DNA from: Acetofilamentum sp.
GTDB lineage: Bacteria; Bacteroidota; Bacteroidia; Bacteroidales; DYOH01
Assembly: GCA_020720625.1 (NCBI GenBank)
Contig: DYOH01000019.1
Coordinates: forward strand, 1 to 46,076
Reading direction: 5' to 3'
Length of the DNA stretch: 46,076 nt
Below are positions 11,444 through 15,600 of the stretch, piece by piece; position 1 is the first letter of the stretch; every line of letters starts with the position of its first letter. The position numbers and the translations under genes were made by a program. The notes beneath the pieces are model-generated. The model had not been told where the DNA came from, ran no database searches, and worked only from the letters and a program-made list of their open reading frames with translations.

Positions 11444-11490
11444 GCTTTTTTCTAATTCGCCAAATTCTTGCTACAAAGATGTCGCAGCTA
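11441..11490 (+). repeat. Solitary degenerate copy of the 52-bp hairpin repeat
   Basis: Reads ttttttctaattcgccaaa, then the unit core ctacaaagatgtcgcagcta at 11471-11490. The right half of the GCAGC/GCTGC hairpin has been lost (caacaaatgc instead). It starts directly at the tail of the cyd terminator and marks the left boundary of the accessory island. Confidence 0.85.
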
Positions 11491-11578: not shown

Positions 11579-12445
11579 ATGCAAGAACCTGAAAATAAAA
11601 TAGAAATAAAACAAAAATTCATAAATCCATTTACAGATTTTGGATTTAAAAAAATATTTGGCTCTGAACCAAACAAAGATTTATTAATTGATTTTCTAAA
11701 CGAATTGTTAAAAACGAAAGAGAAAATCAAGGATTTAACTTACAAAAAAACAGAGCATTTAGATTCAACCGAAGCAGATAGGAAAGCGATTTTTGATTTG
11801 TATTGTGAAAATGAAAAAGGTGAAAAATTTATTGTTGAATTACAAAAAGTTAAACAGCAGTTTTTTAAAGACAGAAGTTTGTATTATGCAACTTTTCCAA
11901 TACAAGAACAAGCAATAAAAGGTGAATGGAATTACGAACTAAAAGCAGTTTATTGCGTTGGTATTCTTGATTTTGTATTTGACGACAAAGATAAAGACAG
12001 ATTAGTTGTAGACGAAATCGGATTAATAAGCAAAAAAACAGGTAAAGTTTTTAACGATAAATTGAGTTTTGTTTACGTTCAAATGCCAAATTTTACGAAA
12101 ACAGAAGACGAATTAGAAACCCACGAAGATAAATGGTTTTATCTATTAAAAAACTTACATAAATTTGACAGAATACCATCAAAATTGCAAGATAAAATAT
12201 TTAAAAAAGTATTTAAAATTGCAGAAATTGCGAAATATTCAGCAGAAGAAAAACAACGATATATTGACAGTTTAAAATTCTATCTTGATTTAAAAAATTC
12301 TTTGGATTATGCAAAATATGAAGGAAAAGTAGAGATTATAATTGAAATGATTAAGGAAGGAATGAATAACGAATTAATTCATAGATTGACAAAACTGTCT
12401 TTTGAAAATATTGATGAAATTCGCAATATATTGAATAATAAGTGA
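11579..12445 (+). CDS. Rpn-family recombination-promoting nuclease / putative transposase (PD-(D/E)XK)
   Basis: A 288-residue protein opening with F-I-N-P-F-T-D-F-G-F-K-K-I-F-G, the hallmark of the Rpn/TIGR01784 family. The PD-(D/E)XK core is seen as Asp73 (A-I-F-D-L-Y) and E87-x-Q89 (F-I-V-E-L-Q-K). E. coli Rpn proteins are DNA endonucleases that raise RecA-independent recombination. The C-terminal part is Lys/Glu-rich and probably helical. The gene is AT-richer than its neighbours and sits between the cyd terminator and the first block of the hairpin array, so it may have been acquired with the repeats. Whether it acts on them is unknown. Confidence 0.85.
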   Translation: MQEPENKIEIKQKFINPFTDFGFKKIFGSEPNKDLLIDFLNELLKTKEKIKDLTYKKTEHLDSTEADRKAIFDLYCENEKGEKFIVELQKVKQQFFKDRSLYYATFPIQEQAIKGEWNYELKAVYCVGILDFVFDDKDKDRLVVDEIGLISKKTGKVFNDKLSFVYVQMPNFTKTEDELETHEDKWFYLLKNLHKFDRIPSKLQDKIFKKVFKIAEIAKYSAEEKQRYIDSLKFYLDLKNSLDYAKYEGKVEIIIEMIKEGMNNELIHRLTKLSFENIDEIRNILNNK

Positions 12446-12602: not shown

Positions 12603-13108
12603 CTACAAAGATTCCGCAGCTACGCTGTTTTTCTTCTAATTCGCTAAATTCTTGCTACAAAGATGTCGCAGCTACGCTGCTTTTTTCTAATTCGACAATT
12701 ATTTTCTACAAAGATTTCGGTGCTACGCACCTTTTTGTAATACAATTTTCTTATTTTCTACAAAGATTTCGCAGCTACGCTGCTTGTTCTTTAATTCGCT
12801 AAATTCTTGCTACAAAGATGTCGCAGCTACGCTGCTAAAAAAATATTTTCACAAAATAATACGATTTTGTGGCTTTTTAGGGGCATCGCCCCGACATCTT
12901 TGTAGAAAACGCAGCCACCACAGAGAACAAAAAGGGGCGTAGCCCCGAAATATACCTTTTTGTATTTATTGTTCTACAAAGATTTCGCAGCTACGCTGCT
13001 TTTCTTCTAATTCGCTAAATTCTTGCTACAAAGATTTCGCAGCTACGCTGCTAAAAAAATATTTTCACAAAATAATACGATTTTGTGGCTTTTTAGGGGC
13101 ATCGCCCA
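12603..13108 (+). repeat. Hairpin repeat array, block 1 (period 51-52 bp)
   Basis: Copies of the core ctacaaagat(g/t)tcgcagc begin at 12603, 12655, 12706, 12758, 12810, 12974 and 13026, so the spacing is 51-52 bp except where a composite module (about 164 bp) intervenes. Each unit contains a 5-bp inverted repeat with a 3-base loop, usually GCAGC-TAC-GCTGC, and GGTGC-TAC-GCACC at 12719-12731. Between hairpins lie AT-rich linkers of two recurring types: ttctaattcg(c/a)..aatt and tttttgtaatacaatttt. The block ends in a composite module truncated within its third hairpin. Confidence 0.93.
12810..12905 (+). repeat. Composite repeat module able to fold as a four-way junction
   Basis: A 96-base module. 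The outer arms CTACAAAGATGTC (12810-12822) and GACATCTTTGTAG (12893-12905) are perfectly complementary over 13 bp. They enclose three hairpins: GCAGC/GCTGC (12823-12835), CACAAAAT/ATTTTGTG (12850-12871, six-base loop) and GGGGC/GCCCC (12880-12892). The first and third hairpins abut the outer stem without a gap. A further GGGGC-GTA-GCCCC hairpin follows downstream near 12934-12946. Confidence 0.85.
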
Positions 13109-13145
13109 GATTTCAATATAGAAAAGGTATTCTTTATAAAATATT

Positions 13146-13946
13146 TCAAAACATGAGCATAAATCCTTTATTCAATTTTTTATATTTTTCGATTTCTGCC
13201 TGTAAAAATTTTATTTCTTGTTCTGCAATAAATTCGCGGAATATTTCCAAATTCTCTTTTTCTTCGGTTTCATTCAGCGCATCAATATATTGAGCTCTAT
13301 CTTCAGTAAAAATCTTTATTAATGGTTCATTGTGATAGAGCTGAATGTAATTCATTAATAATCTCGCTGTTCGCCCATTCCCATCACCGAATGGGTGAAT
13401 GTTTACGAAATTATAATGAATATCGGCAGCAAGTTTCAATATTTCAGTTCCTTTTACCGCATCAATTTTCTGATTAATGGAAGTACATAATTGAGCTATC
13501 AAGCTTGGAACTTTTTTTAAATCAGGAAAATACTTTTTATCCACATATACTTGTGCAAGGCGCAAATCACCTTTAGAAGTATCAAAACTTCCAAGAGCAG
13601 TGTTTGTAAAACTTCCGGTGTTTTTCATTACATAGGCGGCAATTTCCTGAATAAATTCAACAGACAATTTTCGTTTTAGCTTAGCTTGTTCCTGAATAAA
13701 CTGAAATGCCGCAAAATGATCCTTGATCATTAAATGGTCTTGTAGTGGCTTTCCTGCCGCAGTAAGACCATTTTCCAGTAATATTTTAGTATCGGTTTCT
13801 GTCAGCGAACAACCTTCAATTTTGGTAGAATGCCAAACGATTGAAATAATACAAAATTTCTCATAATCGAGAACTTCTTGCAAATTCAGATTTTTGTATT
13901 CTTTGTTCAATTTATCTAAATCGCCCCACATACTATTATATTTCAA
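13146..13946 (-). CDS. Fic-domain protein, class II (N-terminal inhibitory helix)
   Basis: Probable protein AMPylase of 266 residues. The catalytic loop H-P-F-G-D-G-N-G-R-T-A-R (184-195) is complete, with catalytic His184, Asp188 for metal and both Gly/Arg phosphate contacts. The autoinhibitory motif (S/T)-x-x-x-E-(G/N) is present early as S40-T-K-I-E44-G45, which places it in the class with an N-terminal inhibitory helix. The C-terminus is Lys/Glu-rich; no DNA-binding domain or separate antitoxin gene is seen. The gene is flanked on both sides by blocks of the hairpin array, and its 3' end lies 38 bases from a truncated repeat module. Target unknown. Confidence 0.92.
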   Translation of the reverse strand: MKYNSMWGDLDKLNKEYKNLNLQEVLDYEKFCIISIVWHSTKIEGCSLTETDTKILLENGLTAAGKPLQDHLMIKDHFAAFQFIQEQAKLKRKLSVEFIQEIAAYVMKNTGSFTNTALGSFDTSKGDLRLAQVYVDKKYFPDLKKVPSLIAQLCTSINQKIDAVKGTEILKLAADIHYNFVNIHPFGDGNGRTARLLMNYIQLYHNEPLIKIFTEDRAQYIDALNETEEKENLEIFREFIAEQEIKFLQAEIEKYKKLNKGFMLMF

Positions 13947-14017
13947 TCATTTACATTAAATAAACTAATTTCAAATCTCATCTGCAAGATAGTAATTATT
14001 TTTTAAATTCGCATTAC

Positions 14018-14098
14018 TTACCATTGTTGCACATCTTCTATACTTTCTAATGTGTACAAGCTTTTCTCTGCTTCTTTTTGGAAAATTGCAGGCAGTTC
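14018..14098 (-). pseudogene. 3' remnant of a gene cut by the repeat array
   Basis: On the minus strand, 26 codons ending in TAA read E-L-P-A-I-F-Q-K-E-A-E-K-S-L, then Y-T-L-E-S-I-E-D-V-Q-Q-W. The composition looks like a real soluble protein C-terminus, unlike the surrounding low-complexity frames. The reading frame has no start codon: directly upstream, from 14098 on, the sequence is a repeat unit, and an in-frame TAG soon follows. I read it as the tail of a gene whose body was lost or replaced when the array expanded. Family not recognised. Confidence 0.4.
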
Positions 14099-14193
14099 GA
14101 CAAAGATTTCGCAGCTACGCTGCTAAAAAAATATTTTCACAAAATAATACGATTTTGTGGCTTTTTAGGGGCATAGCCCCGACATCTTTGTAG
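14098..14193 (+). repeat. Composite repeat module with imperfect outer arms
   Basis: Same plan as the module at 12810, with hairpins GCAGC/GCTGC, CACAAAAT/ATTTTGTG and GGGGC-ATA-GCCCC. The left arm reads cgacaaagatttc, so the outer stem against gacatctttgtag (14181-14193) has mismatches. It abuts the truncated gene at 14018-14098. Confidence 0.8.
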
Positions 14194-14623
14194 AAAACGC
14201 AGCCACCACCGAGAACAAAAGGGGCGTAGCCCCGAAATATACCTTTTTGTATTTATTGTTCTACAAAGATTTCGCAGCTACGCTGCTTTTTGTAATACAA
14301 TTTTCTTATTTTCTACAAAGATGTCGCAGCTACGCTGCTTTTCCTCTAATTCGACAATTATTTTCTACAAAGATGTCGCGGCTACGCTGCTTTTCTTCTA
14401 ATTCGTCAATTATTTTCTACAAAGATTTCGCAGCTACGCTGCTTTTCTTCTAATTCGACAATTACTTTCTACAAAGATTTCGCAGCTACGCTGCTTTTCC
14501 TCTAATTCGCTAAATTCTTGCTACAAAGATGTCGCAGCTACGCTGCTTTTCTTCTGATTCGCTAAATTCTTGCTACAAAGATTCCGCTGCTACGCTGCTT
14601 TTTTCTAATTCCCCAACATCTTG

Positions 14624-14713
14624 CTACAAAAATTTCTGCTAAAAAATAGATTTTTTTCACAAAATAATACGATTTTGTGGCTTTTTAGGGGCATAGCCCC
14701 GACATCTTTGTAG
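14624..14713 (+). repeat. Composite repeat module lacking its first hairpin
   Basis: The left arm is degenerate (ctacaaaaatttc) and the GCAGC/GCTGC hairpin is deleted. The CACAAAAT/ATTTTGTG and GGGGC-ATA-GCCCC hairpins and the right arm gacatctttgtag (14701-14713) remain. Confidence 0.8.
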
Positions 14714-15142
14714 AAAACGCAGCCACCACCGAGAACAAAAGGGGCGTAGCCCCGAAATATACCTTTTTGTATTTATTGTTCTACAAAGATTTCGCAGCTA
14801 CGCTGCTTTTCCTCTAATTCGCTAAATTCTTGCTACAAAGATGTCGCAGCTACGCTGCTTGTTCTTTAATTCGCTAAATTCTTGCTACAAAAATGTCGCA
14901 GCTACGTTGCTTTTTTCTAATTCGACAATTTTGTTCTACAAAGATTTCGGTGCTACGCACCTTTTTGTAATACAATTTTCTTATTTTCTACAAAGATTTC
15001 GCAGCTAAGCTGCTTTTCTTCTAATTCGACAATTACTTTCTACAAAGATGTCGCAGCTACGCTGCTTTTTTCTAATTCGCTAAATTCTTGCTACAAAGAT
15101 TCCGCAGCTACGCTGCTTTTCTTCTAATTCGCTAAATTCTTG

Positions 15143-15238
15143 CTACAAAGATGTCGCAGCTACGCTGCTAAAAAAATATTTTCACAAAATAATACGATTT
15201 TGTGGCTTTTTAGGGGCATAGCCCCGACATCTTTGTAG
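15143..15238 (+). repeat. Composite repeat module able to fold as a four-way junction
   Basis: A 96-base module of the same length and geometry as that at 12810: perfect 13-bp outer stem (15143-15155 with 15226-15238), hairpins at 15156-15168, 15183-15204 and 15213-15225. The loop of the third hairpin is ATA here and ATC in the other module, while the stems are conserved. Confidence 0.85.
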
Positions 15239-15600
15239 AAAACGCAGCCACCACCGAGAACAAAAGGGGCGTAGCCCCGAAATATACCTTTTTGTATTTA
15301 TTGTTCTACAAAGATTTCGCAGCTACGCTGCTTTTTTCAGATTCGTTAATTATTTTCTACAAAGATTTCGCAGCTACGCAGCTTTTCTTCTAATTCGCTA
15401 AATTCTTGCTACAAAGATGTCGCAGCTACGCTGCTTTTTGTAATACAATTTTCTTATTTTCTACAAAGATGTCGCAGCTACGCTGCTTTTTTCTAATTCG
15501 TCAATTACTTTCTACAAAGATTTCGCAGCTACGCTGCTTTTCTTCTAATTCGTCAATTATTTTCTACAAAGATGTCGCAGCTACGCTGCTAAAAATAGAT

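Follow-up and report, generated by a model that had tools for sequence, protein, structure and literature searches.

A tandem array of hairpin-forming units, together with the larger composite modules that interrupt it, lies within a 46,076-nucleotide stretch of contig DYOH01000019.1 (the window; assembly GCA_020720625.1) from Acetofilamentum sp., a member of the Bacteroidales, and it is the nature of these modules and their relationship to Y1 transposases of TnpA subclass 1.2 that is considered here. The array (12603..15589, plus strand) consists of ~29 units of CTACAAAGATNTC plus a hairpin, all on the plus strand and mostly at 51-52 bp spacing, and it is broken by five composites and a Fic gene. 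Across the window there are 31 plus-strand copies of CTACAAAGATNTC when variants are included, with a hairpin after all but two, and 4 minus-strand copies.

The first composite module (12810..12905, plus strand) is intact, and comprises a plus-strand unit, a 44-nt middle and an inverted unit, closed by a 13-bp outer stem. Its plus unit has a 5' arm, CTACAAAGATGTC (12810..12822, plus strand), followed by hairpin 1, GCAGC-TAC-GCTGC (GCAGCTACGCTGC; 12823..12835, plus strand); the middle contains a central hairpin of 8 bp with a 6-nt loop, CACAAAAT-aatacg-ATTTTGTG (12850..12871, plus strand); and the inverted unit contributes hairpin 3, GGGGC-ATC-GCCCC (GGGGCATCGCCCC; 12880..12892, minus strand), and its arm, GACATCTTTGTAG (12893..12905, minus strand), with hairpins 1 and 3 both assigned from fold and sequence. 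The original prediction had described a perfect 13-bp outer stem enclosing three hairpins, two of them abutting it, and sequence and folding agree: 13 of 13 outer-stem positions are paired, and hairpins 1 and 3 meet the stem with 0 unpaired bases. The plus strand folds to this cloverleaf as single-stranded DNA (ssDNA; -25.1 kcal/mol, z -8.2) and as RNA (-40.9, z -9.8), and the lowest-energy ssDNA fold of the minus strand is one extended hairpin.

A further intact module (module 5; 15143..15238, plus strand) has the same parts, and three modules are decayed, as the prediction had also stated: module 2 (13026..13108, plus strand) has lost its 3' arm, module 3 (14098..14193, plus strand) has mismatches in the 5' arm, and module 4 (14624..14713, plus strand) is without hairpin 1. 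A search for the full geometry gave two matches in the array; none appeared in the remainder of the window, nor in 20 dinucleotide-shuffled versions of the array. These composites are parts of segmental repeats spaced 520/525 bp apart (99% identity over 192 nt) and are therefore not independent of each other. In each of them one plus unit faces one minus unit, so the module is not elementary; it is an inverted, head-to-head pair of a single unit, CTACAAAGATNTC plus a hairpin with a 5-bp stem.

That unit has the consensus [CT]TA[CT]-N9-hairpin, with C at -1 in 69%: the arm (C/T-TAY plus 9 nt) is conserved, and the hairpin that comes after it varies freely in sequence but retains its pairing. 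Within the window the hairpin stems differ yet stay paired (GCAGC/GCTGC, GGTGC/GCACC, GGGGC/GCCCC). An unbiased hairpin test came from units selected by their arm only, as the hairpins of the composite alignment had been picked for pairing and are 100% paired by construction; a perfect 5-bp stem was present in 67 of the 129 distinct units so selected, versus 0.4 expected, and 13 different stems were represented. The hairpin is thus a conserved structure, and hairpins covary independently.

Related elements were found in other genomes. Among ~85,000 species genomes, a collection that may exclude the window's own genome, the strict composite pattern matched one record, a Verrucomicrobiia metagenome-assembled genome (G355) with about 8 dispersed composite loci in which arms and hairpins are conserved, middles are divergent and outer flanks are unrelated. 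Exact 24-mers are common to the window array and two genomes of the window's order, G038, which has about 30 units, and G026. The original prediction had staked its reading on covariation and on occurrence beyond this array, and both were found.

When Y1 transposases were sought with PF01797 (Y1_Tnp) in unit-bearing genomes, a unit was located <= about 350 bp from a TnpA 1.2-type gene in every such genome examined (G038, G026, G355 and the window genome, G000). The single Y1 gene of G038 has units on both sides, the only true units of G026 adjoin its TnpA 1.2-type gene, and G355 has two such genes with nearby units. By a profile search, 215 of the 393 genomes sampled from the window's order have TnpA 1.2 genes. 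For a population test, 113 TnpA 1.2 genes, mostly from this order, were assembled; their products have the HUH motif (112/113), the catalytic Tyr (111/113), the Q (112/113) and the HH (113/113), and they show the subclass 1.2 traits (HUH, WQ, Y---Q--HH, short length), an assignment based on motif and not on the clustering of Quentin et al. 2018. In 2 of the 113, L137 (G355:C176) and one more locus, His replaces the catalytic Tyr, and these copies are, judging from this substitution, probably inactive. Only one TnpA 1.2 gene was detected in the window genome. It lies on another contig (L002 about 755-1535, G000:C92), contains an internal TAA and has on either side a nested palindrome of a different kind, CTAAGGTGTAA...ACCTTATC...TTACACCTTAG. 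Because of this internal stop and different flanking palindrome, the window array is probably passive now, or a relic.

The association with TnpA 1.2 extends across the population. Around the 113 genes, GC-rich hairpins occur at 7.3 and 9.1 per kb at <=150 bp from the gene versus 0.5-1.0 per kb at >900 bp, a density 8-10 times higher near the gene. A hairpin was present at <=300 bp for 98 of 101 genes (on both sides for 66), compared with 30 of 79 (both sides for 2) in a control window. A TAY at precisely 12 nt on the 5' side of the hairpin (-12..-10) accompanied 19.6% of near hairpin strands versus 4.4% of far ones, and same-strand units near TnpA are most often spaced 50-53 nt apart, which matches the repeat period of the array in the window. 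In addition, 39 composite rows that keep the shape of the module but differ in arms and stems were recovered mostly at TnpA 1.2 loci, and hairpin enrichment holds at Verrucomicrobiota TnpA 1.2 loci (11.8 vs 2.3 per kb). At L164, L191, L208 and L248, composites are directly repeated on either side of the TnpA gene (L164 with a period of 182 bp), which suggests that composite-tnpA-composite is a larger unit. A second type of hairpin, with 7-bp stems (CGACCCC-NNN-GGGGTCG and similar), occurs at L156, L161, L162, L165, L166, L170, L174 and L180, and from its letters is a further, putative family resembling repetitive extragenic palindromes (REPs).

Taken as a whole, the module is very probably an element akin to a REPIN (REP doublet forming a hairpin), composed of two inverted REP-like units that belong to TnpA subclass 1.2 HUH (Y1) transposases. 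The anatomy is REPIN-like and, very likely, so is the mechanism, although the element lacks the tag of canonical GTAG REPINs and its enzyme falls outside class 2 RAYT. From the position of such units beside TnpA 1.2 genes, we infer that the unit is probably what TnpA 1.2 cuts and spreads. We give an even chance to the broader proposal that, in the window's order and some Verrucomicrobiota, TnpA 1.2 runs a REP system of its own that had gone unrecognised, in which CTAY-N9-hairpin units would be recognised by arm plus hairpin shape and spread as inverted four-way-junction REPINs and as tandem arrays able to carry passengers such as Fic. A possible mechanism, modelled on IS608, ISDra2 and TnpA-REP (PMC8266576) and on the solved structures closest to TnpA 1.2, which are transposases of the IS608 and other IS200/IS605 types, would begin when a strand becomes single-stranded, for example as the lagging-strand template, and TnpA binds the folded hairpin and its 5' arm. 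Cutting would then occur at a fixed site relative to arm and hairpin, perhaps the invariant TAY, and re-joining of the strand could excise, copy or insert units, pairs or adjacent DNA, with the inverted pair as the mobile REPIN-like unit. Growth to ~30 tandem units might reflect either TnpA-driven joining or ordinary recombination between repeats.

Several observations weigh against assigning these elements to TnpA 1.2. The window array is without an adjacent TnpA gene. A TAY-at-12 unit lies within <=600 bp at only 72 of the 113 TnpA 1.2 loci, other hairpin types being found elsewhere, and the TAY unit is present at few Verrucomicrobiota TnpA 1.2 loci. The arm motif is rare in the phylum: across 296 of its genomes it gave mostly 1 match each, close to what the reversed-pattern control gave, which means that the exact arm is not shared throughout the phylum. 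Finally, dispersed units of the window genome sit within a miniature inverted-repeat transposable element (MITE), and their mover may be something else. This MITE-like element measures roughly 400 bp, has terminal inverted repeats of 12 bp (ATTGAATTAGGC/GCCTAATTCAAT) and encloses two or three hairpin units of the CTACAAAGAT type; it was seen on other contigs of the genome (L003, L004, L007, L008, L011, L013, L015 and L017). About three tandem copies of a 364-bp repeat (L005 1-1100, G000:C35) also include a unit.

One alternative, which would refine the REPIN-like interpretation and is not exclusive of it, holds that the four-way junction itself is a selected, protein-recognised fold, either a cruciform or an ssDNA cloverleaf. 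A complementary outer stem is indeed kept in about 10 genomes despite different arms, and two hairpins abut the stem in those composites. To analyse this stem, composites were chosen by hairpins and terminal TAY/RTA ends only, with no other outer pairing used; the distance from TAY to hairpin was 12 in 33 of 39 composites so chosen, and their arms include TACCAACGCTGC/GCAGCGTTGGTA, TACATAATGTTT/GAACATTATGTA and TACCATAATGCC/GATATTATGGTA. With one composite per genome, inner arms paired at 98 of 126 positions, above the mean (71) and maximum (93) of 20,000 shuffles, and the whole composite structure was 91.3% paired with double-sided changes in 19 of 23 pairs, a result reached by 0 of 500 shuffles. 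However, arm agreement was 6.57 of 9 for inverted partners and 6.69 of 9 for same-strand neighbours, which are unable to pair. Since same-strand arms match equally well, within-genome arm homology suffices for the outer stem, and outer-stem covariation, although shuffle-significant, was after this control no longer taken to prove that a four-way fold is under selection.

The fold of the 15143 copy also speaks against the four-way form: its lowest-energy ssDNA structure is the extended hairpin, isoenergetic with the cloverleaf or better, because the side hairpins can pair with each other, so that cloverleaf and extended hairpin are two conformers of nearly equal predicted energy. The identical geometry predicted for this copy therefore holds for its parts and not for its most stable ssDNA fold. 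In addition, the central hairpin is not conserved in relatives, and the composite spacer ranges from 15 to 79 nt. Outer-stem pairing may thus be a by-product of inverted units, and the conserved element is the half, arm plus hairpin, and not the four-way junction put forward originally; the junction as a conserved structure is possible, and its selection as a recognised fold is a tentative proposal that we regard as on the unlikely side.

Somewhat less probable still is the view that the hairpins occupy subterminal positions in ordinary insertion sequences (ISs) of the IS200/IS605 type, consisting of TnpA with left and right ends, and that the array is debris of such ends. TnpA 1.2 scores best with the IS200/IS605 transposase model, reaching 25-30 bits with the REP-tyrosine model NF047646 (REP_Tyr_transpos), well below its cut-off of 80, and hairpins lie on both sides of the gene. 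IS200 ends are single hairpins on the same strand. The loci described here, however, have several units per side, in both orientations, with inverted pairs and gene-free dispersed copies, and within-genome copies of TnpA 1.2 were few and divergent in a published survey (PMC6006769).

It is improbable that the cloverleaf is primarily a structured RNA or an element of mRNA 3' ends, with the TnpA linkage secondary, despite the high stability of its RNA fold and the covariation of its hairpins. An Rfam scan returned no family at gathering score and a tRNA scan returned nothing, units occur in both orientations, both strands of the composite fold, and, away from genes of a single transposase family, hairpin density is back at background within ~1 kb. 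The original prediction had offered a structured RNA or a transposase-recognised, REPIN-like DNA fold; the second of these is favoured, as units flank HUH genes, the composite occurs in other genera and another phylum, and stems covary, and the first is not sustained as the primary nature of the element. A simple satellite produced by slippage or recombination around the PDDEXK_2 (Rpn-type) or Fic gene is least credible of all, since these genes do lie in or beside the array but units recur beside TnpA in other genomes.

Neighbouring features of the window include an extra hairpin, GGGGCGTAGCCCC, read from the sequence as a minus-strand unit with a decayed arm (12934..12959), which recurs downstream of other composites at about 14221, 14741 and 15266. 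A lone truncated unit, with an arm and half a hairpin (11471..11490, plus strand), is located upstream of the PDDEXK_2 nuclease/transposase gene (11579-12445), which sits between it and the array. This Rpn-type gene was considered as a partner and set aside as incidental: it was near a unit in 2 of 7 window-genome matches and in 0 in G038 and G002. The Fic/DOC-family gene (13146..13946, minus strand) lies between composites 2 and 3, which have the same orientation, where some REPtrons have TnpA, and is possibly a passenger. No similar DNA was found in plasmid and phage records.

The reading of these elements as REP-like units of TnpA 1.2 accounts for an otherwise puzzling cloverleaf array, and it bears on a transposase that more than half of the genomes sampled from the order encode and that had no known DNA partner; the survey of Quentin et al. 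2018 lists no REP for TnpA Y1 subclass 1.2 (PMC6006769). A defined arm plus hairpin substrate makes the function of TnpA 1.2 testable by a standard single-strand cleavage assay. A literature search with the motif letters returned only unrelated-looking papers and covered open papers, so an earlier description is possible.

Compared with known systems, the transposases resemble subclass 1.2 as surveyed in HUH, WQ, Y---Q--HH, a length of about 150 aa and low copy number, and differ in having flanking hairpins at 98 of 101 loci and a range that reaches Verrucomicrobiota (PMC6006769). IS200/IS605 elements (IS608, ISDra2) share the transposase sequence family, and their hairpins are recognised as ssDNA (PMC8266576), whereas multiple units per side, inverted pairs and gene-free dispersed copies and arrays distinguish the present system. 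TIRtrons also have Y1 genes (TIRYTs) flanked by double palindromic repeats that are not GTAG REPs (PMC3733652), but TIRYTs are placed with subclass 2.1 (PMC6006769) and their motif is GGGGWSAS, not CTAY-N9-hairpin. The closest likeness in organisation is to the REPINs, or bacterial interspersed mosaic elements (BIMEs), of RAYT (TnpA-REP), which share the inverted palindromic pair with a divergent spacer, evenly spaced tandem arrays, the link to an HUH Y1 transposase and perhaps also dispersal in many copies (PMC3116915; PMC6006769). An inverted pair with a less conserved spacer is seen in the window composites, in 8 in G355 and in the 39 composite rows, and units flank an HUH Y1 gene, as in REPtrons, at other loci and not at the window array. 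Unlike RAYT, which is class 2 (Y---NP), the transposase here is class 1 (Y---Q--HH), and unlike canonical REPs, the units have no 5' GT[AG]G at the hairpin foot; they have instead a CTAY tag of reversed polarity, at the 5' outer end, with a 9-nt arm between tag and hairpin, and thus provide a second tag design, at a distance from the hairpin, for comparison with GTAG REPs.
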